Origin: Kineococcus sp. NBC_00420
GTDB taxonomy: Bacteria > Actinomycetota > Actinomycetes > Actinomycetales > Kineococcaceae
Assembly: GCF_036021035.1 (NCBI RefSeq)
Contig: NZ_CP107930.1
Span: 4,216,001 to 4,280,000 of the forward strand
Direction of reading: 5' to 3'
DNA: 64,000 nucleotides
The translations under genes and the position numbers were made by a program. The notes beneath the pieces are model-generated. The model saw only the letters and a list, made by a program, of their open reading frames with translations. It did no database searches and was not told where the DNA came from. Below are positions 1 to 37,155 of this stretch, in pieces (within the stretch, counting starts at the first letter, position 1; each line of letters starts with the position of its first letter).

Positions 1-3000
1 GTCGCCCGCGACGAGCTCGGCATCGCGCTCGACACCCGCCGCATCGCCTCCGCCGTCGGCGCGCACTGGGGCTTCGACCCCAACCCCGCCATGGACGAAC
101 TGCGCCGTCAGCTCGCGGGCACCACCGGGCTGCGGGTGGAGCGCCGGTTGGTGCTCGCCACCTTCGCGGACCCCGGCGCCGACCTGCTCGCCGACCTGCG
201 TCGCCGTGGCGCCGTGGTGCGCGACCACCGGATCGTCTCGGCGCTCGCCGCCGGGCAGCCCGTCGAGCCCCCGGAGGACGACCCCCGGGCCGTCGTCGTC
301 CCCGCCGACGAGATCGGCATCGCCCTCGACCCCGCCCAGCGGCGCGCCGTCGACGCGGTGCTCGCCGGCGGCGACCTGCGCCTGCACGCCCCGACGGGGA
401 CGGGGGCCACCCAGGTCGCGGCGGCCGTCATCGCCGCGACCGTCGCCGCGGGAGCGCGCGTGCTGCTCGTGGCCGACTCCGCCGCCGACCGTCGCGCGAT
501 CGACGAACGCCTGCGCGACAACGGCTTCGGACGGCTGGTGCTGCACCTCGTGGCCGACCTCGACCCCCGGGCCGGCGAGACCGACGCCCGCGACCAGGTC
601 GCTGCCGCCCGCCGCGAGGTCGCGGCCCGCGACGCCGCCGAGCGTCCCTCCGGTGCGCTGCCCGACGTCGCCGGGCCCGCCCGCGCGCTGGAGGACCACG
701 CCCAGGCCATGCACCGTCCCCGCGCGCCGTGGGGGGTCAGCGTCCACGAGGCCATGGAGTCGCTCGTCGCCCTCGGCGAGCGCGACGTCCCGCCGACGAC
801 CTCCCGTCGGCTGCGGGGTGAGGACCTCGCCGCGTGCTCCCGCGAGGACGTGACGCGCTGGTCGGGCGTCCTCGAGGAGGCCGTCGACCTCGGCGCGTTC
901 ACCGTCGGGCCGGGCAGCACGCCCTGGGCCGGAGCCCGGCTGCGCAGCGACGAGACGGCCGCGCAGGCGCTGGCCCGCGTCGACGGGCTCGTCGGGGTCC
1001 GGCTGCCCTCGGTGCGCGCCCTGCTCGCCACGGTCTGCGACGCCGCCGGTCTGCGGGGGGCGTCCTCGGTGTCCGAGGCGGCGGAACGCACCGACCTGCT
1101 CGACGGCGTCCGCACGACCATCGGCCGGTTCGGGCCCGAGATCTTCGCGCAGTCCCTGGGGGACGTCGCCGCGGCGACGGCGACGCCGCAGTGGCGACGC
1201 GAGCACGAGGTCCGCCTGGGGTTGCTGACCCGGTGGCGGTTGCGCCGGGCGGCCCGGGCGATGCTCCGCCCCGACGTGACCGCCGGGGACTGGGCGACGC
1301 TGCACGACTGGCTGCAGCAGGCCCGCAGCCAGCGGATGCGCTGGCAACGCGCCTGCGTGCGGGACAACCCGCCCGCGGTGCCGGCCGACCTGGACGCCCT
1401 GGTGGCGGCCGTCGACGACCTCCGTCACGAGCTGGAGGCCCTCGGCGAGGTTCTGCCGCCCCGTTCCTGGGCCGAGCTCGGCGCGGACTCCCTCCTCGAG
1501 GTCCAGCTCCCCGAACTGACGGCGCTGCTGCGCCGCCTCGTCGCCGACGCCGCGGCCCTGGACACGCTGCCCCGGCGCACCGTGCTCCTCGAGGAGCTCA
1601 CCGCCGCGGGCTGGGGTGGTCTGCTCGAGGACCTCGAGGCGCGCTGGGCGGGACCCGGCAGCCTGCACCTGCCCTCCGAGGTGGAGGCGGCCTGGTGGGC
1701 CGGGATCCTCGACACGATCTCCATGACCGACCCGCTCGTCGGGACGGGGGAGGCGGGATCGCTGCGCCGGGCCCGCTACGAGCTGCAGCTCGCCGCCGTC
1801 GCCGGACGGGGCCTGCGTGCCGCCGCGGTGCGCTCCGCGCTCGACGCCCGCAGCACCTCCGACCACGAGGTCCTGCCGGTCACGGCGATGTCCGCGGCCG
1901 GGGTCGCCGCGCTGGCCGACCGCGTCGAGGAGGCCGACCTGCTGGTCGTCCTCGGCGCCCAGGCCACCACCACGGCCGCCGTCCTGCCCGCGCTCTCCCG
2001 CGGTCGCCGGCTGCTCGTCGTCGGCGACCCCGCGCTGCCCGGTCCGGCCGACGTCCTCACGGCGTCGGAACGTCAGGACGAGCCGCAGGCCAGCAGGGTC
2101 AGCTTCTTCGCCGACACCGAGGGGTTGCTCCCCACTCTGCAGCTGGACCGCCAGCACGCCCTCCTCGACGACGGTCTCCTCCACGACGTCCCCGCGGGAC
2201 TGGCTGCGGTGCAGGAGGTCTCGTTGCCCGGACCCGGGCTCGACGCCCGGGCCGTGGCCCGCACCTCGCACCGTCCGCCCGGTGCGCGCCGCGGTCCCGA
2301 CGCGCTCGTGGACCTCGTCGCCGACCGGGCTCTCGCCGCGCTGCGCGCCCACCCCGAGGAGTCCCTCGGGATCGTCGTCCCGGACGCGGCCGGTGCGGAA
2401 CTCCTCGCCGACGCCGTCCGTCGCCGCGCTCTCGCCGAGGGACTCCCGCTGGCCGTCGGACGGGAGGCGCTGCTCGTCGCGACCCCGGCCCGCTGGGCGG
2501 GGGAGCGGCGCGACCACGTGCTCGTCGTCGCCGACGCCGTCCTCAACGGCGCGGGTCTGGGGGTGGCGGGCGACCCCGTCGCCGGCCGCGCGCAGGTCTG
2601 GATGGCGCTGACCCGTCCCCGGCTGCGCACCACCCTCGTCCTCGACGACTCCGGCTGGTCGGCCGAACAGGGTGCCGACGACGTCGCCACCCAGGCCCGT
2701 CGGATGCTCGCCCGCCTCGCGCTGTCCTGGGAGGAGTACCCCGAACCGCTCGAGCGTCCCGGCGCCTCGGCCCTCGTGCGCTCGCTCGCCGCGGCGTGCC
2801 GGGCCCTCGGGTTGCCCGTGGAGTGCGGGGTCGGGGCCTCCCGCCGGCTGGCGATGGCCGTGCGCGACCAGCGCGCCCGGGCCGGGGTGGGTCCGGGTCT
2901 CGTGGTCGAGGTCGACGACCCGGCGTGGGCGGCGGCCGGTCTGCTGGACCGCGAGGTCGACGGGCCGACGGAGTTCGAGCGTCGCGGGTGGCGCTACGTC

Positions 3001-30826: not shown

Positions 30827-31918
30827 TCAACGAGTGGTGTCGTTCACCACATCGAGGAGGTAGCCCTCGCGTTCCGCGACGACCACGTCGCTCAGCGCTG
30901 CTGGTCCCGCCGGAACGGCGGGCCGGGGAGCGGACGATCGGGCGAGGCGGCGCCGAGCCTCCGAGACCAGGACGGTCGCGCTGGCCCGGCCCGTCCCCGC
31001 CGTGCTCTGGTAGAGGACCGCCCCGTTGCGCGCCGCGTCGCCGACCACGTGCGGGGGGCGCACCGTCGTCACCGCCGCGCCGAGCGCGAGCCACGGCGAG
31101 GACCCCGAGAGGGCGCGCAACGTCCGTCGGGGGACGGGCGCGTCCAGCACCTGCCGCGCTCTGTCCAGCGCGAGGGCGACCGCGAGCCCGGTACCTGCCG
31201 CTCCGGCGGTCTCGCGGAGTCGCTCCCAGTCGGCCCCGGAGCTCGCCAGGCGCAGGTCGTAGGACCACAGCAGCCGCCACGCCCCGGACAGGCAGGCGTG
31301 CAGCGCGAGGTGGTGCAGCTGGTCCGTCGCGTCGAGCACGCGGGCCCGGGTGCCGAGCAGGGTGATGTCGCGGGTGCGCTCGAGCATCGCGTCGACGTCG
31401 ACGGCGAAGCGCCGGCGACGGGAGGGGCGGTTCACCAGGTGCCAGTGCAGGTCGAGGAAGGTGCCGTGCGGCAGGGCGACGGCGATCTCCCCGGCCCGGG
31501 CGGCGCGGATGCCGGCCCAGTCGGGGTCCATCGCGCGGGCGCCGATCGACTCCAGCGCGCGCAGGGCGTCGCCGAAGGCGGCGGGGGAGACGAGGACGTC
31601 GAGGTCGTGGAACTCCCGCGGTGCGCCACCGTGGACGGTCGCCGCGACCGCGGGGCCCTTCAGCACGGCCCAGGGGAAGCCGGCGAGGGCCTCGGCGACG
31701 AGCTTCAGGTCGAGCTGGACCGGGAGCTGGCGTCCGGCCTGGGCGAACACGCTCGGCCGGGTCGCGGCGCGCAGGTGCGCGACGGCGGCGGCGTCGTCGG
31801 CGTGCTTGAGCAGGTGGTCGAGGGAGGGCCCGATCCGGTGGTGGTGCACCACCTCGGCGAGCACCTCGGTCTCGACCCCGGTCGGGTTGGCGGCGATGGC
31901 GCGCAGGCGGTCACGCAC
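30827..31918 (-). CDS. PF14907-type nucleotidyltransferase of the lasso-peptide locus
   Basis: 363 residues from GTG 31918. It matches the uncharacterised nucleotidyltransferase family often seen in RiPP loci: AVLKGPAVAATVHGG then REFHDLDVLVSPAAFGDALR, with the metal-binding pair at D105 and D107, followed by FLDLHWHLVNRP and LHHLALHACLSGAWRLLW, DLRL. In the pseudomycoidin system (from memory) such a protein adds hexose to the phosphate made by the lasso kinase. Here it lies 59 bp behind the second precursor on the same strand, and an HPrK-like kinase is divergent, so the same two-step tailoring of a C-terminal serine is a reasonable inference. Confidence 0.85.
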   Translation of the reverse strand: MRDRLRAIAANPTGVETEVLAEVVHHHRIGPSLDHLLKHADDAAAVAHLRAATRPSVFAQAGRQLPVQLDLKLVAEALAGFPWAVLKGPAVAATVHGGAPREFHDLDVLVSPAAFGDALRALESIGARAMDPDWAGIRAARAGEIAVALPHGTFLDLHWHLVNRPSRRRRFAVDVDAMLERTRDITLLGTRARVLDATDQLHHLALHACLSGAWRLLWSYDLRLASSGADWERLRETAGAAGTGLAVALALDRARQVLDAPVPRRTLRALSGSSPWLALGAAVTTVRPPHVVGDAARNGAVLYQSTAGTGRASATVLVSEARRRLARSSAPRPAVPAGPAALSDVVVAEREGYLLDVVNDTTR

Positions 31919-31977
31919 GAAGGTCCCCGCCGCGCGGACGCGGTGGGGACCCCTGGTGCTGCGCGGAGCGTCGGTGC

Positions 31978-32136
31978 TCAGCTCGGGATCGAGCAGTCGC
32001 AGGAGGAGACGGAGTAGAGGGGCTTCCCGGCCAGGAAGTCGCCGTCGCTCTTCTGCCCGAACTGCTTGCCCGAGAGCGTCAGGTCGGCGAGCGAGCCGAG
32101 GGTGGTCAGGGTGGGGGCCTGGTAGGGCTGGGTCAC
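31978..32136 (-). CDS. Lasso-peptide precursor A1
   Basis: 52 residues, too short for most gene callers. GTG at 32136 follows GAGGAGG at 5 nt. The leader carries the RRE-binding pattern Y5-x2-P8-x-L10-x3-G14-x5-T20 (YQAPTLTTLG, then LADLTL). The C-terminal part contains KQFGQKSDGDFL and ends in CDCSIPS with a terminal Ser. The Asp residues of SDGD are the only acidic side chains at suitable places for the macrolactam. Two Cys near the end (CDC) distinguish it from A2. It is 24 bp behind A2 and ahead of the nucleotidyltransferase, so A2-A1-N form one transcript. Confidence 0.88.
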   Translation of the reverse strand: MTQPYQAPTLTTLGSLADLTLSGKQFGQKSDGDFLAGKPLYSVSSCDCSIPS

Positions 32137-32160
32137 GGGGTCCTCCTCAGGAGCGGGGCG

Positions 32161-32310
32161 TCAGGAAACGGTGTACAGCGTGGCGGTGCTGCCGTCGTCC
32201 TCGCAGAGGAAGTCGCCGTCGCTGCGCGTGCCGAACTTCTTGTTCCGCAGGGTCAGCTCGGCGAGCGATCCCAGCGTCGTGAGGCGCGGAGCGGTGTAGT
32301 GCTCGGCCAT
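32161..32310 (-). CDS. Lasso-peptide precursor A2
   Basis: 49 residues from ATG 32310, with AGGAGG 5 nt upstream. Leader Y5-x2-P8-x-L10-x3-G14-x5-T20 (YTAPRLTTLG, LAELTL), nearly identical to A1. The C-terminal part has KKFGTRSDGDFL, then CEDDGS, and ends LYTVS, so the last residue is again Ser. Shared leader, shared FGxxSDGDFL block and a C-terminal Ser define the pair as products of one system. A longer in-frame start at 32382 has no ribosome site and would add residues unlike any lasso leader, so it is rejected. Confidence 0.92.
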   Translation of the reverse strand: MAEHYTAPRLTTLGSLAELTLRNKKFGTRSDGDFLCEDDGSTATLYTVS

Positions 32311-32500
32311 GGTTGCCTCCTGAGGCATCGCGGTCCAGCGGTACGTGGTGGCGGTGCGTCCGAAACGTGACACTCGGTCCATCGGACGTTACTGCACCTG
32401 GGGCATCCTTGGGCACTCTTCGTCAAGATCATCTCAACGGAGAGTAGGGATCTTCCCGGGTGGTGCGGCACGTGGGGGAACGGGCTGCTTGTCTTCTCCC
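32311..32500. promoter_or_regulatory. Divergent control region between lasso precursors and lasso kinase
   Basis: 190 bp separating the A2-A1-N transcript from the kinase gene must hold promoters for both. A TACTCT hexamer on the minus strand (32441-32446) matches TANNNT and is the same hexamer found before the B1 gene; TTGACG also occurs on the minus strand near 32420. The 11-mer ACGGAGAGTAG (32437-32447) recurs at 52058. No convincing full promoter can be drawn. Confidence 0.4.
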
Positions 32501-33391
32501 ATGACCACCACCTCCGGGGCACCCGTCGCCTACGGACTCGCCCTGCCCGACCTGCGCGGGGCCACGCACCTGCTGCACCCCGCCCGTGGCGACGAGACCC
32601 TCTGGCGCATCGAGCGCACCCGGGTCGAGGGGCGGACCCCCGTGGAGACCGCGGTGGACTCCCGGCGGGCCGTGCTGGCGATGGACGGCGGTGACGTCGA
32701 GATCGACCGCGCGTCCGCGACGACGACGTTCCGGGCGAGCACCCTGCCCACCGACCTCGAGGTCGTGCACCCCCACCTGGCCTCCACGGCCGTCACCGTC
32801 GCCCACTGGACGGGCCGGATCGCCCTGCACGCCGGTGCGGTCGTCGTCGACGGACGGGTCTGGGCGGTGCTGGGGGAGCGCGGGGCCGGCAAGAGCACCG
32901 CGATGTACTCCCTGGTGGGTGCGGGCTACCCGCTGGTGACCGACGACGTCCTGGTCCTCGACGGCGCCCGGGTGCTGCCCGGGCCGCGCTGCATCGACCT
33001 GCGCCGTCCCACCGCCGAGCACTACGGGGTCGGCGAGGACATCGGCGTCGTGGGCCGTCGCCGGCGCTGGCGGGTGGAACTGCCCGGCAGCGGCCGGGAC
33101 GACCGCCTCGACCACGACCTGGAGCTGGCGGGCCTCGTCCACCTGGCCTGGGGCGACCACCTCGCCGTCACCGAGGTCCCCCTCGACCAGCGGTGGCCGG
33201 CCCTGCTGGAAGGTCTGGCGCTGAAGCTCCCGCCCGCCGACCAGCGCGGGATGCTGCGGCTGCTGGCCCTGCCGACGGTGCGGTTCCAGCGTCCGCAGCG
33301 CTTCGCCGAGGTCGACCGGGCGGCGCACACCCTCGGGCGCGAGCTCAGCCGGTGGGGTGCACGGCGAGCCACGCCTGCTGCAGCAGGGTGA
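32501..33391 (+). CDS. HPr-kinase-like lasso peptide kinase
   Basis: 296 residues from ATG 32501 (no strong Shine-Dalgarno sequence). C-terminal two thirds are an HPrK/P-like kinase: RIALHAGAVVVDGRVWAVLG, Walker A GERGAGKS around residues 125-132, and LVTDDVLVLDG (Walker B-like Asp pair). The N-terminal part is the variable domain of such kinases. In paeninodin-type loci this family phosphorylates the hydroxyl of the C-terminal Ser of the lasso precursor; both precursors here end in Ser. It converges on the cyclase gene with a 47-bp tail overlap. The alternative of a metabolic HPr kinase is unlikely because no PTS genes are near. Confidence 0.85.
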   Translation: MTTTSGAPVAYGLALPDLRGATHLLHPARGDETLWRIERTRVEGRTPVETAVDSRRAVLAMDGGDVEIDRASATTTFRASTLPTDLEVVHPHLASTAVTVAHWTGRIALHAGAVVVDGRVWAVLGERGAGKSTAMYSLVGAGYPLVTDDVLVLDGARVLPGPRCIDLRRPTAEHYGVGEDIGVVGRRRRWRVELPGSGRDDRLDHDLELAGLVHLAWGDHLAVTEVPLDQRWPALLEGLALKLPPADQRGMLRLLALPTVRFQRPQRFAEVDRAAHTLGRELSRWGARRATPAAAG

Positions 33392-34535
33392 GGGTGTGCA
33401 GGTCCGGGGCCGGTGAGCTCCACTGCGCGTGCAGCGCCTGCGGGTCGACGAGGTCGGTGTCGACCCCGCTCCCGGTCCAGCCGCGGGCGAACTCCGCCGC
33501 CGGTCCGGCCCAGAACGCCCCGTTGAACCCGGCCTTCGTCTCACGGGTGAGGAGTTCCCGCGGCAGCAGGTCGCCGAAGTGCTCGAGCAGTTCCCCGCTG
33601 CGACCGCGGGGGCCGGACCAGCCCCAGGTCGCCGCGGCCGCGACCAGCACCGGAGCCGCCGCGAAGGGGTGCTCGACGACGACGTCGTGGGCCTGCGCCA
33701 TCCGCTGCTTGGCCCGGCGGGGGAGTTGCAGGACCCGCCCGGGCCACGTCCACGTCGCGGCGGCGACGTCCCAGCGCAGCGGCTGCGCCGCGGCGTCGAG
33801 GGCGTTGGCCCGCCGCAGTTCCCGCGCGGTGCCCGGGCGCAGCCAGTCGTAGTCGAGGTCGAGGTGGCGGCCACCGCGCCGGGCCCGCCACGACCTCGGC
33901 GCCGCGGCCGAGAACCCGAGGTTCGGCAGCGAACGCCACCGCATCGGCGCACGACGGGCCGCGACCCGCACGACGGGGTAGCGCGAGACCTGCGAGAAGA
34001 GCTCGTCGCCGCCGATCCCGGTGAGCACCGACCCCCCGCGGGCCGCAGCGAAGACCGGTTCGTGCAGGTGACCGTTGAACGGGGACAGCACCCCGTCGCG
34101 CCGCAGGACGGTGCGCGCGTGCGGGCCCAGGACGTCGAGCTCGTCGGTCCACGTCGGGCGCTGCCACTCCTCCAGGCCGAGGTGGCGCACGACGAGTTCC
34201 TGCCAGTCGTCCTCGTGGGAGTCCGCGACGGCCGGGAAGCGGTGGGAGTAGGGGACCGGGTCGGCCAGCCCCTCCCGCCGGGCGACCGAGGTCGCCACCG
34301 CGAGCACGGTGGAGGAGTCGCGGCCGCCGGAGAAGCTCACGACGCACGGAGCGCGCTGCAGCGCGGGCAGCACGACGGTCTCCACCGCGGTGCGCAGCGG
34401 TGACGGACCCCGCGACGGCGTCCGGGGGAGCAGGGTCAGGGGCTCGACCCCGGGCTGCGGCCCGAGGGGCATGCCCCAGGTGCTCTCCAGCGGGGTCAGC
34501 CGCAGCAGCGGGTCGTGCGGGAGGGCCGAGGTCAC
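33345..34535 (-). CDS. Lasso macrolactam synthetase (asparagine-synthetase-like, short)
   Basis: 396 residues from GTG 34535, overlapping the B2 stop. It activates the ring Asp/Glu carboxylate with ATP and joins it to the core N-terminus. The PP-loop SFSGGRDSSTVLA is at residues 67-79; FPAVADSHEDDWQELVVRHL, SVLTGIGGDELFSQVSRYP and LLPRELLTRETKAGFNGAFW are typical of AsnB-like cyclases. Canonical cyclases (McjC, about 510 residues) carry an N-terminal glutaminase-like domain; here only about 65 residues precede the PP-loop, so that domain is absent or reduced. Gene order C-B2-B1 runs on the minus strand. Confidence 0.88.
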   Translation of the reverse strand: MTSALPHDPLLRLTPLESTWGMPLGPQPGVEPLTLLPRTPSRGPSPLRTAVETVVLPALQRAPCVVSFSGGRDSSTVLAVATSVARREGLADPVPYSHRFPAVADSHEDDWQELVVRHLGLEEWQRPTWTDELDVLGPHARTVLRRDGVLSPFNGHLHEPVFAAARGGSVLTGIGGDELFSQVSRYPVVRVAARRAPMRWRSLPNLGFSAAAPRSWRARRGGRHLDLDYDWLRPGTARELRRANALDAAAQPLRWDVAAATWTWPGRVLQLPRRAKQRMAQAHDVVVEHPFAAAPVLVAAAATWGWSGPRGRSGELLEHFGDLLPRELLTRETKAGFNGAFWAGPAAEFARGWTGSGVDTDLVDPQALHAQWSSPAPDLHTLTLLQQAWLAVHPTG

Positions 34536-34939
34536 CGCAGGGCCGGGACCCTCGTCAGCTCGCGGTAGGTCGCGCTCTCGTCCTCGTCGTGCCCGTCCAG
34601 CCAGGCGTGCGCCGCGAAGCCGTCCGCCACCGAGGCGGCGACGACGATCTCGTGGTGCTCACCGTGGGCCGTCAACCAGGCCTGCACGACGAGGCAGCGC
34701 TGCAGGCAGGTCGCCCCGCGCCGGCTCAGCACGGCCTCGACGGCGGCCAGGGCCTGGGGAGGCAGATCCCTCGGGGGGACGACCCGGGTCCGCAACCCGT
34801 CCTCGGGCAGCACCCTGCGCACCGTGCGCAGCGAGCGGTCGGCCCACCACGCCGCGCTCAGCCCCCCGCCGCGGGCCAGGCGCAGCCGCCGGCCGACCCG
34901 GCGCCCGGTGCGACGCAGCGCCCGACGGGTGGGGTGCAC
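34532..34939 (-). CDS. Lasso leader peptidase B2 (transglutaminase-like)
   Basis: 135 residues from GTG 34939. It is a stand-alone B2 protease of the transglutaminase-like fold with the Cys-His-Asp triad: C78 in RRGATCLQRCLVVQAWL, H111 and D115 in FAAHAWLDG. It removes the leader before cyclisation, using B1 to hold the leader. N-terminal 40 residues are strongly basic. It starts one base after the B1 stop and overlaps the cyclase start, so B1, B2 and C are translated from one mRNA. Confidence 0.9.
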   Translation of the reverse strand: MHPTRRALRRTGRRVGRRLRLARGGGLSAAWWADRSLRTVRRVLPEDGLRTRVVPPRDLPPQALAAVEAVLSRRGATCLQRCLVVQAWLTAHGEHHEIVVAASVADGFAAHAWLDGHDEDESATYRELTRVPALR

Positions 34940-34940
34940 G

Positions 34941-35216
34941 TCAGGTCGTCCGCAGCAGCGGGGCGCAGGAGTCCAGGAAGGCCTCGAGGTCGGCCTCTGC
35001 GCGCTCGGCGGGGACGTCGAAGGTGTCGGTCAGCCGGACCAGCAGGTCCGCCCGCGTGGTGCCCTCGACCAGGAGCGGCCACAGCGTGACCCCGGCTCCG
35101 GACACCGCGTGGTAGGTGGAGGTGGCGGTGTCGAGGACGACGATCTGGTCGTCGACCTCGTTCCACGCCAGCTCGTCCGCCCGGACCGCGACCAGCGACT
35201 GACCCCGTTCATTCAC
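34941..35216 (-). CDS. Lasso leader-recognition protein B1 (PqqD-like RRE)
   Basis: 91 residues if GTG 35216 is used (GTG 35222 adds two). Single PqqD-like winged-helix RRE domain: SLVAVRADELAWNEVDDQIVVLD, TATSTYHAVSGAGVTLWPLL and TTRADLLVRLTDTFDVPAERAEADLEAFLD. It binds the YxxPxL leader of both precursors and delivers them to B2 and C. The start at 35216 is favoured because a TACTCT -10-like hexamer ends 6 nt before it, with CTGCCA 17 nt further up; no Shine-Dalgarno sequence exists for either start. Confidence 0.9.
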   Translation of the reverse strand: MNERGQSLVAVRADELAWNEVDDQIVVLDTATSTYHAVSGAGVTLWPLLVEGTTRADLLVRLTDTFDVPAERAEADLEAFLDSCAPLLRTT

Positions 35217-35222
35217 GAGCAC

Positions 35223-35251
35223 AGAGTAAGTGCAGGACGACTCTGTGGCAG
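35223..35251 (-). promoter_or_regulatory. Probable promoter of the lasso B1-B2-C operon
   Basis: On the minus strand CTGCCA (35246-35251, 4 of 6 to TTGACA) and TACTCT (35223-35228) are separated by 17 bp. The -10 ends 6 nt before GTG 35216, implying leaderless translation of B1. It lies in the 37-bp gap after the ABC transporter gene. Confidence 0.5.
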
Positions 35252-35259
35252 CGCGATCC

Positions 35260-37155
35260 TCACTGCGCTGCGTGACGCCCCGCGCTCCCCGGGGGCAGGA
35301 CCTCCGTCTGGTACGCCTGCGCCTGCAACGTGTAGAGCTCCGCGTACAGCCCGCCCCGGGCCAGCAGCTCGTCGTGGGTCCCGGTGTCGTCGACCCGTCC
35401 CTCGCGCAGCACCACGATCCGGTCGGCCTCGCGCACGCTGGAGAACCGGTGCGAGACGAGCACGACCGTCCGCCCCGCCATCAGCTCGCGGATCCCGGCG
35501 AAGAGTTCCGCCTCGGCGCGGGCGTCGAGGGCGGCGGTGGGTTCGTCGAGGATCACCAGGTCCGCCCCGCGGTAGAACGCCCGGGCCAGCGCCACCCGCT
35601 GCCACTGCCCGAGCGAGAGGTCGACCCCGCCGGGCAGTTCCGCGCTCAGCGGTGTCGCGTAGCCCGCCGGCAGCCGCCGCAGCAGGTCGTCGGCACCGGC
35701 CTGGCGGGCGGCCGCCGGCACCGCGGAGGCCTCGTCGCCGCGCCCGGTCCGGCCCACGGCGATGTTCTCCTGCCCGCTGAACTGCCACTGCACGAAGTCC
35801 TGGAACACCACCGCGATCTGGTCGCGCACCGAGGTCTCGTCCAGACCCGCGACGTCCTCCCCGTTCCAGCGCACCGCACCGGAGTCCGGTCGCAGCAACC
35901 CGGCGATCAGCTTCGACAGCGTCGTCTTCCCCGACCCGTTCTCCCCCACCAGGGCGACGACCTCACCGCGCCGGACCGACAGCGAGACCCCCTGCAGCGC
36001 CGGCCCGCCACCCTGCGGGTAGCCGAACACGACGTCGTCGACGCGCAGTTCCTCGAAGGCACCGGCCGCCGGTCCCGGTGGGCGCGCGGCCTCGGCGCCC
36101 AGCTCCAGGAACCCGTGCAGGTCGTCCAGGAACAACCCCGACTCCAGCACGTTCCCCACGCCGCTCGCCAGCGTCTGCAACCGCGACGCCAGCAACGGGG
36201 CCGCCGCACCGGCCGCCCCCGCGTCGGCCAGCGTCATCCGGCCCGAGTCCACCAGCCACAACAGGATCGCCACCGTCGCGACGACGCTCGCCGCGGTGAG
36301 CACCTGGGCGAGCAGCGTCAACCGCATCCGCCGACCGACGTGCGCCGTGAGGTCCTGCTGGTAGCGGTCGAGCAGGTCGTCGTAGCGCTCCCGGAGGTCA
36401 CCGGCCAGGTCGTAGGCCCGGACCTCCTTGGCCTCGCGGCGACCCGTCAGCGCGGAGCGCACGTAGGTCCGGACCCGGTAGGCCGTCGCCTGCCCGACGG
36501 CGAAGTCGAACTCGAGGCGTCCCCCGCGACGGGTGAGCAGGAGCAGCGGGACCCCCGCGAGGACCAGGACCGGCAGCAGCACGGGCTGGATCGTCCAGAG
36601 GGCGATCACCAGCCCGACCGACCCCACGAGACCACCGAGGATCCCCACGAGGCCCTGGGCGACACCGACCGGGCGCGACACGGCGTTCGTCGTCACCCGT
36701 TGCAGCCGGTCGTAGAACGCGGGGTCGTCGAAGCGGTCGAGGCCCACCCGGGTCGTCGTGTTCAGCACCCGGTCCCAGACCGCGCGCTGCACGGCCTCCG
36801 AGAGCAGCCGCATCCGCTGCCCGCGCACCGCCCCCGCCAGCCCGGCGAGCAGGCTCACCCCGGCCAGCGTCACCAGCGGGCCCGCGGCGGCCCGCAGCAG
36901 ATCGCCTTCAGCGCCGCTCGTCGCGCCGCTCGTCGCGCCGCCCCCACCGCCCAGGACGCGGGTCAGGGCCTCGCGCCCCACCAGCACCTGCACCGCGACC
37001 AGGGCCGACCCCAGCAGCTGCACGCCGAAGATCAGGACCAGGTCGCGGCGACGGGCGCTCCAGCACAACCGCAGCGCCTCGACCACCAGCGTCGGCAACG
37101 ACCCGAGCCGGCGCCGACGGGAACGGCGCTCGCGGGCGATGCTCACCGCGTCCAC
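35260..37155 (-). CDS. ABC exporter of the lasso-peptide locus
   Basis: 631 residues from GTG 37155. A fused half-transporter: a membrane domain with about six helices (residues 40-330), then an ATPase domain with Walker A VGENGSGKTT, Q-loop VVFQDFVQWQ, signature LSLGQWQRVALARA, Walker B LVILDEPTA and switch His in VLVSHRFSS. It would act as a homodimer in the membrane. Its place next to B1-B2-C on the same strand suggests export of, and immunity to, the lasso product (D function); a role in polysaccharide export cannot be excluded, but Wzx and Wzy are already present. Confidence 0.86.
   Translation of the reverse strand: MDAVSIARERRSRRRRLGSLPTLVVEALRLCWSARRRDLVLIFGVQLLGSALVAVQVLVGREALTRVLGGGGGATSGATSGAEGDLLRAAAGPLVTLAGVSLLAGLAGAVRGQRMRLLSEAVQRAVWDRVLNTTTRVGLDRFDDPAFYDRLQRVTTNAVSRPVGVAQGLVGILGGLVGSVGLVIALWTIQPVLLPVLVLAGVPLLLLTRRGGRLEFDFAVGQATAYRVRTYVRSALTGRREAKEVRAYDLAGDLRERYDDLLDRYQQDLTAHVGRRMRLTLLAQVLTAASVVATVAILLWLVDSGRMTLADAGAAGAAAPLLASRLQTLASGVGNVLESGLFLDDLHGFLELGAEAARPPGPAAGAFEELRVDDVVFGYPQGGGPALQGVSLSVRRGEVVALVGENGSGKTTLSKLIAGLLRPDSGAVRWNGEDVAGLDETSVRDQIAVVFQDFVQWQFSGQENIAVGRTGRGDEASAVPAAARQAGADDLLRRLPAGYATPLSAELPGGVDLSLGQWQRVALARAFYRGADLVILDEPTAALDARAEAELFAGIRELMAGRTVVLVSHRFSSVREADRIVVLREGRVDDTGTHDELLARGGLYAELYTLQAQAYQTEVLPPGSAGRHAAQ

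Follow-up and report, generated by a model that had tools for sequence, protein, structure and literature searches.

A Kineococcus lasso-peptide locus with two precursors, an HPrK-like kinase, a short cyclase and possibly expanded rings

Rings of 7–9 residues have been described for lasso peptides of known structure. Kinases of the PadeK/PsmK kind act on the terminal Ser, whereas BsfK and LppK act on Ser3, and PsmN itself belongs to the PF14907 nucleotidyltransferase family. The paeninodin and pseudomycoidin clusters (PadeK, PsmK, PsmN) combine split B1 and B2 proteins, a macrolactam cyclase and an exporter with an HPrK-like kinase, a Ser-ended precursor and, in some, a nucleotidyltransferase (PMC9266682, PMC8498205, PMC5067487). 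The locus described here shares these features but is actinobacterial, has two precursors and a divergent kinase, and carries an Asp at predicted core position 10, not within 7–9. The RREs of paeninodins favor Trp in the leader motif (PMC13381572), whereas both precursors of our locus have Tyr. Tyr(-17), Pro(-14) and Leu(-12) are also found in the leader of the Bsf cluster of Bradymonas, whose low-similarity HPrK-like kinase has the same active-site spacing; that system differs in acting at Ser3, in having Ile at leader position -2 and in its proposed Gly1-Asp8 ring (PMC10368454).

Eight proteins fill positions 30827-37155 of the window, the 64,000-nucleotide stretch of the Kineococcus sp. NBC_00420 genome that was analyzed. 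On the minus strand are an MsbA-like ABC exporter (35260..37155), the PqqD-like RRE B1 (34941..35222, start codon uncertain), the transglutaminase-like leader peptidase B2 (34532..34939, CLQR...HAWLD), and the AsnB-type cyclase C (33345..34535). The HPrK/PEPCK-fold kinase K (32501..33391) lies on the plus strand; in each of the five window-clade loci the kinase gene points away from the precursors. A gap of presumed promoter DNA (32311..32500), in which no shared operator was clear by eye in an alignment, separates it from the minus-strand genes for precursors A1 (32161..32310, 49 residues) and A2 (31978..32136, 52 residues) and the PsmN-like nucleotidyltransferase NT (30827..31918, start codon uncertain; PF14907 E-value 1.1e-30). 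In both precursors the leader spans residues 1-21, follows the pattern Y-x2-P-x-L-x3-G-x4-L-T with Thr at -2, and is closely preceded at the gene level by a GGAGG site. An RRE, a cysteine leader peptidase and an AsnB-type cyclase thus adjoin short precursors, and the identification of a lasso-peptide cluster is well supported. The gene content, catalytic motifs, conservation and position of the Asp can be read from the sequence itself.

Pfam gathering scores were exceeded by NT (PF14907, 107.5 vs 31.2), C (PF00733, 58.9 vs 21), B1 (PF05402, 45.5 vs 23.4), B2 (PF13471, 26.2 vs 26) and the ABC protein (PF00005, 115.1 vs 25), but not by K (PF07475, 15.9 vs 33.3). The curated NCBIfam models were less generous: B2 scored 24.9 against a cut-off of 33, which the B2 of the related locus L030 passed (55.6), and C fell below its cut-offs as well. 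For the leader model lasso_leader_L3 (cut-off 19), A2 passed (21.7) and A1 was narrowly short (18.8); among the relatives, L083, L079, L029 and L027 passed, L084 was short (16.5) and L040 gave no match. An earlier note on this DNA had described the same gene set, with its divergent kinase, and had called it a lasso cluster whose B1, B2 and C genes should score in lasso HMMs and whose precursors should recur beside the same enzymes. The description holds throughout; of the three proteins, all passed in Pfam, and B2 and C fell short in NCBIfam. The note had also presented the surrounding polysaccharide island as unusual, which is overstated because paeninodin-like lasso clusters inside capsule loci have been published for Bacilli (PMC13381572), a setting thus shared by the two types.

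The order ABC, B1, B2, C, divergent K, precursor(s), NT is repeated in three other congeneric genomes (loci L025, L026 and L027), so the locus is not a chance arrangement. A1 is 83% identical to its counterpart in L025 and 88% in L026, and the single precursor of L027 shares 58% identity with A1 across 33 residues. Against the window, dN/dS in L025 and L026 was 0.27 and 0.15 for A1 and 0.33 and 0.28 for A2; in the close pair L025-L026 the values were 0.73 and 0.49, on 11 differences each. These ratios are evidence of selection on both precursors, and together with the conservation in congeneric genomes they rule out an origin of A1 and A2 as chance ORFs.

Beyond the genus, we assembled 37 loci of an actinobacterial short-cyclase family. 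A kinase was present in 36, a B2 pattern was matched in 26, and a PF14907 enzyme lay inside the fetched stretch in 21. Precursor pattern matches that lacked an adjoining cyclase or a lasso leader were dropped by eye (11, 4, 12 and 2), L045 proved to be a duplicate of L040, and L052 (genome G792) was excluded from the counts and the tree, its cyclase frame being broken by a stop; the L052 precursor would read Gly1...Asp8 in Tyr(-17) numbering; it has Ala at -2 and lacks the terminal Ser. Searches with the kinase, counting the own genome wherever a set included it, found it in 4 of 297 genomes of the order, in 2 of 396 of the phylum (the own genome and G792) and in 1 of 294 of the Nocardioides family. 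When named genomes were scanned with the aligned kinases, using two peptide patterns that relatives can escape, the sole hits were one in Nocardioides mangrovicus and a partial one in Tabrizicola soli. Plasmids searched with the cyclase (E-value 1e-20) gave no match, nor did the cluster proteins in the 19-kb stretches flanking the region on the left and right (L056, L057).

The predicted ring acceptor is where the locus departs from described lasso peptides. With cores numbered from Tyr(-17) and Thr(-2), neither A1 nor A2 has an Asp or Glu at core positions 7–9, and a conserved Asp stands at position 10. The predicted A1 core (RNKKFGTRSDGDF...LYTVS, residues 22-49, 32164..32247, minus strand) starts with Arg22 and has acids at 10 (32218-32220), 12 and 16-18, ending in Ser (32164-32166). 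That of A2 (SGKQFGQKSDGDF...SIPS, residues 22-52, 31981..32073, minus strand) starts with Ser22, has acids at 10 (32044-32046), 12 and 26, and carries a CxC tail. The earlier note was silent on the missing acid at 7–9. Asp12 of the window was considered as the ring acceptor and dropped, being absent in L027 and L040. The simplest reading would be a macrolactam ring of 10 or 11 residues; the ring size depends on a leader-core boundary that is set by analogy.

This pattern is found in a minority of the family. Among its 52 precursors, again in Tyr(-17) numbering, 38 have Asp9, some with an extra acid at 7 or 8, and 3 have Asp at both 7 and 10. The remaining 11 have no acid at 7–9 and an Asp at 10 or 11: 8 belong to the window clade and 3, all reading Gly1...Asp10, to a second clade. 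Two further genomes fetched afterwards gave three more second-clade precursors, outside the 52, that are all Gly1...Asp10 with no acid at 7–9; two likely precursors of this clade, in L084 (core GKLASGPMKD with Asp10, its 3' end long and altered) and in L083 (degraded), were also left uncounted. In the cyclase tree the precursors without an acid at 7–9 are split between the two clades. For the 8 loci concerned, origin in a single event was rejected (p 0.004), but with the Asp7/Asp10 trio included it was not (p 0.07). Since Arg1 and Gln1 also occur among Asp9 precursors (L042, L043), the first core residue of the window precursors is in keeping with the family. We found no report of 10-residue rings or of Asp10 in lasso peptides among open-licence papers, which does not prove their absence.

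The main rival to an expanded ring is a shifted leader cut. A shift of 1-3 residues would be needed to bring an acid into 7–9. If B2 cut at least one residue past Thr-Leu, the product would have a 9-residue ring (starting at Asn1 in A1 and Gly1 in A2) or an 8-residue one (Lys1-Asp8). We consider this possible, though it is not the reading we favor. A Lys (Lys24 in A1 and A2) stands seven residues before the Asp in all 8 window-clade precursors, with a spacer of 2-3 variable residues between it and Thr-Leu, and would suit an 8-residue ring. Expanded rings would moreover differ between orthologous A2 cores, at 10 and 11 residues. A one-residue change in ring size is reported to lower production significantly, which speaks against such a difference; in its favor, caulosegnins show that one enzyme set can close 8- and 9-residue rings (both PMC13352647). 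Taking Lys as residue 1 would place Thr at -2 in L027 and in the A2 precursors of L025 and L026, but would leave Arg, Ser, Thr or Val there across the clade; BsfA is reported with Ile(-2) (PMC10368454), so -2 can differ from Thr, and residue 1 of metanodin is proposed as Asn (PMC12670498), which would suit Asn1 in A1. Against a shifted cut, Thr-Leu is at its usual place in all 8 window-clade precursors, a count to be read with the search pattern in mind, which asked for a nearby Thr. The three second-clade precursors keep Thr-Leu with Gly directly after, and there residue 2 varies (Ser, Lys, Arg) while Gly1 is constant. Retention of Thr(-2)-Leu(-1) in 11 of 11 precursors without an acid at 7–9 argues against a moved cut. 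Thr(-2) is found in 52 of 52 family precursors, partly by construction of the first search pattern; the L040 precursor was found by that pattern alone, those of L025, L026 and L027 also by tblastn.

The same Lys suggests another connectivity, in which the AsnB-type cyclase would join the Asp to the Lys side chain (i to i+7) and leave a free N-terminal stub, giving a lariat of a new kind. The fixed Lys-Asp spacing beside a stub variable at 2-3 residues would fit, but none of the 3 counted second-clade precursors has a Lys there, Gly1...Asp10 accounts for them, and to our knowledge no lasso cyclase uses a side-chain amine. We regard this lariat as very improbable.

The cyclase itself is short. 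C has 396 residues, and family cyclases, at about 390 residues, likewise have no glutaminase-like domain. Its matches begin at model position 259 of NF033535 (668 positions; score 10.1 vs a cut-off of 525) and 321 of NF033561 (561 positions; 32 vs 300), so that neither NCBIfam model is matched over its N-terminal part, and the first 252 positions of TIGR01536 have no counterpart in C. The closest PDB folds were human AsnS (8sue, E-value 1.6e-6), TsnB9 (7ylz), 1q15 and 1m1z, with TM scores of 0.40-0.48. C thus shares its fold with asparagine, beta-lactam (1m1z) and carbapenam (1q15) synthetases, and differs from them in being the synthetase domain alone. The truncation was not remarked upon in the earlier note, and no report of lasso cyclases lacking the N-terminal domain was found among open-licence papers, their absence not being proved.

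A missing domain could mean that the lasso role of C is lost and that the products are linear or unthreaded, like the linear polyphosphorylated peptides (LPPs) of Bacilli. LPP clusters share with the locus the RRE, the HPrK-like kinase, the NTP transferase and the MsbA-like exporter, and often lie in polysaccharide loci (PMC13381572). They differ in having a signal-peptidase-like LppS and no cyclase; the locus here has B2 and C, and none of its 8 proteins matches a signal peptidase in Pfam. C also retains SGGRDSS, GGDE and R..KA.F, for which simple patterns were matched in 36, 29 and 33 of the 37 cyclases, and the canonical Asp9 is kept in 38 of the 52 family precursors. Linear products are therefore unlikely.

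K missed the Pfam cut-off, but its catalytic residues are those of an HPrK-like kinase, the type that the earlier note had named. In BsfK, changes at H148, G163, K169, S170, D186 and D187 lowered activity (PMC10368454). These residues correspond, with equal spacing, to H110, G125, K131, S132, D148 and D149 of K (which also has G130), are invariant in all five K rows, and form a motif pattern found in 38 of 38 kinases. A structure search with the K model (pLDDT 91) was headed by PEPCK/HprK folds, at moderate similarity (TM about 0.5). All 22 aligned rows, including those of the window and L052, carry the KG...D-x-D motif of NT, and a PF14907 enzyme beside the kinase recalls pseudomycoidin. A1 and A2 both end in Ser, as do 43 of 47 distinct family precursors. 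The note had proposed that both products are phosphorylated, and possibly glycosylated, at this Ser. Phosphorylation of the terminal Ser is likely for A1; for A2 it is less sure because in L025 its orthologue has a C-terminal Asn. Like BsfK and LppK, which act at Ser3, K may instead target a Ser elsewhere in the precursor.

A working model can be proposed in which both precursors would be bound by B1 at their YxxPxL leader, K would phosphorylate the precursor, most likely at the C-terminal Ser, and NT would add a further group onto the phosphate, a hexose by analogy with PsmN. B2 would cut after Thr(-2)-Leu(-1), and C would adenylate the Asp of a conserved S-D-G motif and couple it to core residue 1 through the alpha-amine. 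Closed around the tail, the macrolactam would have 10 residues in both window precursors; in L027, L040 and the A2 orthologues of L025 and L026 it would have 11. The ABC protein would export the product. We infer the phosphorylation site, NT chemistry, cut site, ring size, threading and export. That the locus functions in making two kinase-modified lasso peptides along this route seems to us evenly poised between right and wrong. The broader proposal, that Actinobacteria make natural lasso rings of 10 and 11 residues, beyond the 7–9 rule by which the class is defined, with short cyclases, that these expanded rings arose at least twice, and that the window adds phosphate-based tailoring, is tentative and falls a little short of even.

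Rings of 10 or 11 residues would mean that lasso cores are predicted with too strict a size rule, and entire groups of precursors may then be scored wrongly; the larger hole would change which plug residues can hold the thread, and design would gain a wider scaffold. Ring closure without the N-terminal domain would be demonstrated by the short cyclase, which would also be a smaller enzyme for structural work. With a kinase family in Actinobacteria, some of its loci lying among polysaccharide genes as they do in Bacilli, the role of phosphorylated lasso peptides could be tested in a second phylum.

The lasso-peptide locus (30827-37155) lies on the single 5.43 Mb contig of the Kineococcus sp. 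NBC_00420 genome, in a window where G+C, taken in 2-kb steps, ranges from 69 to 78% and continues across the locus without a break. The minus strand carries, in this order, the MsbA-like ABC exporter, B1 (RRE protein), B2 (leader peptidase) and C (a short AsnB-type cyclase) and then, beyond the plus-strand HPrK/PEPCK-fold kinase K, the precursors A1 and A2 and the PF14907 nucleotidyltransferase NT. The convergent C and K share 47 bases, and a 190-base gap separates the divergent A1 and K. The flanking genes encode a Wzy-type polymerase/ligase, group 1 and 2 glycosyltransferases, a pyruvyl transferase, a Wzx-type flippase and RmlC, all polysaccharide genes, as in the island described in the earlier note. 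Among ten proteins chosen by eye, glycosyltransferases are present in loci L027, L038 and L043 too, and L027 adds a UDP-sugar dehydrogenase, so the association with polysaccharide genes may extend beyond close relatives of the window.

The cyclase was found in 4 of the 12 genomes of the window's taxonomic family, all from its genus. Gene order in L025, L026 and L027 is that of the window; in L040 (Nocardioides mangrovicus, judged by a sequence match) NT and the exporter are placed elsewhere. The divergent kinase noticed earlier recurs in all four. The A1/A2 pair is found in the window, L025 and L026, and a single precursor in L027 and in L040. For the window against L025 and L026, dN/dS was 0.27 and 0.15 for A1 and 0.33 and 0.28 for A2, 0.42 and 0.43 for K, and 0.44 and 0.44 for C; the close pair L025-L026 gave 0.73 (A1) and 0.49 (A2), on 11 differences per precursor, 0.15 (K) and 0.33 (C). 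All precursor values are based on 36-41 synonymous sites.

Searches of the class and the order found short cyclases of the window type in 20 of 394 and 18 of 297 genomes, respectively (overlapping sets). Among 37 loci read at length, window included, all 37 had a lasso-type precursor. The kinase was present in 36, NT in 21 (counted within the stretch fetched) and the B2 pattern in 26; the sole kinase-less locus, L042, was read over 9 kb at the end of a contig. Cyclase motifs matched SGGxDS in 36, GxGGDE-like in 29 and RxxKAxF in 33. The frame 5' of the cyclase match closed within 35 residues in many loci (e.g. L038, L039, L053, L055 and L072), so these hold no hidden N-terminal cyclase domain. 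The window locus is genuine and of a known kind, and the actinobacterial short-cyclase, kinase-bearing family is, as far as our searches show, new.

Several loci have features of their own. L055 holds two different kinase genes. In another genome of the phylum (G792), L052:9014-11600 carries a K-like kinase, an RRE protein, an NT-like gene, a cyclase frame broken by a stop and a precursor that would be Gly1...Asp8, without terminal Ser. About 7 kb from the L041 cyclase, a 57-residue ORF (1568-1741, minus strand) has a YxxPxLxxxG...T leader and no Pfam match. Four loci of family f28 have a CysD/CysN-like gene close to the lasso genes, either for a PAPS-reductase-domain protein (L029 and L030) or for an EF-Tu-like GTPase (L028, L029 and L032), suggesting a sulfate-activation neighbour.

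The six BsfK residues that matter for activity (H148, G163, K169, S170, D186 and D187) all have counterparts in K at equal spacing (H110, G125, K131, S132, D148 and D149). BsfK stayed active when G168, the counterpart of G130 in K, was changed to Ala; G166 was likewise dispensable, and L027 and L040 show no conservation at its position. A structure model of K (pLDDT 91) retrieved PEPCK first (E 1.6e-8) and then HprK (E 2.3e-5), with moderate TM-scores; the two share a common P-loop kinase fold. A sequence search of solved structures placed HPr kinases at the top, weakly (E 0.03-0.2), with an unrelated ribosomal protein scoring similarly (E 0.16).

The earlier note proposed terminal-Ser modification of both products. 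This is likely for A1, which ends in YTVS in the window, L025 and L026 (3/3), and is less sure for A2, which runs on beyond the equivalent YTVS/YSVS with a CxC tail to a final Ser (window, L026) or Asn (L025); A1 would therefore be the surer kinase substrate. The window A2 tail (31978-32016) follows YSVS, and A1 has a single Cys; a disulfide or tail trimming is possible. Second-clade precursors (L079, L083, L084, L091 and L092) have a Gly-Ser-Arg terminus, in which Ser is penultimate, and L079, L083 and L084 have a kinase despite this end; here Arg may be trimmed or the kinase may act at another site. In NT, the nucleotidyltransferase signature KG...D-x-D is present in 22/22 aligned rows (window and L052 included). 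PsmN puts a hexose on the phosphate of pseudomycoidin in vivo (PMC9266682), while lppN deletion had no visible effect (PMC13381572), so hexose transfer by NT would be one possibility.

Setting the leader Tyr at -17 (numbering of PMC10368454) places the cut after Thr(-2)-Leu(-1). The search patterns covered the leader alone, one of them requiring Thr near -2, so the position of Asp played no part in selection. They yielded 52 precursors, 47 of them distinct. Asp occupies position 9 in 38 (33 distinct), in some cases together with an extra acid at 7 or 8, and three have Asp7 and Asp10 (L076, L081 and L082). The other 11 have no acid at 7-9: Asp is at 10 in both window precursors, L025 A1, L026 A1, L079, L083 and L084, and at 11 in L025 A2, L026 A2, L027 and L040. 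Compared with SGKNHGKSD of L029 (Asp9), window A2, SGKQFGQKSD (Asp10), reads as having one residue inserted inside the predicted ring.

All eight window-clade precursors have a Lys seven residues ahead of Asp, and the variable part is the two or three residues from Leu(-1) to this invariant Lys. B2 might then cut past Thr-Leu and give an ordinary ring: a cut directly before Lys would yield an 8-residue ring with Lys1, and one a residue past Leu would yield Asn1 in A1, as proposed for metanodin (PMC12670498). However, Thr-Leu is invariant at its usual place and Gly directly follows it in the second clade; the shifted cuts, though plausible, are therefore ranked below a cut after Thr-Leu, which predicts the larger ring.

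In the cyclase tree, which has several long branches, the window clade (5 loci, support 97/97) is separate from the second clade (3 loci, 100/100), which adjoins the Asp7/Asp10 trio (96/95). The single-origin test, which presumes a group named before the tree is seen, rejected one origin for the eight Asp10/Asp11 loci, grouped by precursor beforehand (p 0.004), and did not reject it for the eleven including the trio, grouped afterwards (p 0.07). After the Gly1...Asp10 pattern was noticed, the cyclase was found in 5 of 6 genomes searched of the second-clade genus; two new ones (G1268 and G1269) contributed three precursors, 3/3 Gly1...Asp10 with no acid at 7-9.

Genome G505 (C20:274500-299000) carries two short-cyclase lasso clusters (L078 and L079), cyclases ~9 kb apart, one Asp8/Asp9 and the other Gly1...Asp10; this genome would therefore make the two ring types side by side. 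Structurally characterised lasso peptides have rings of 7, 8 and 9 residues according to PMC13352647 (June 2026). As far as our searches show, an Asp position predicting rings of more than nine residues is the main novelty of these loci.
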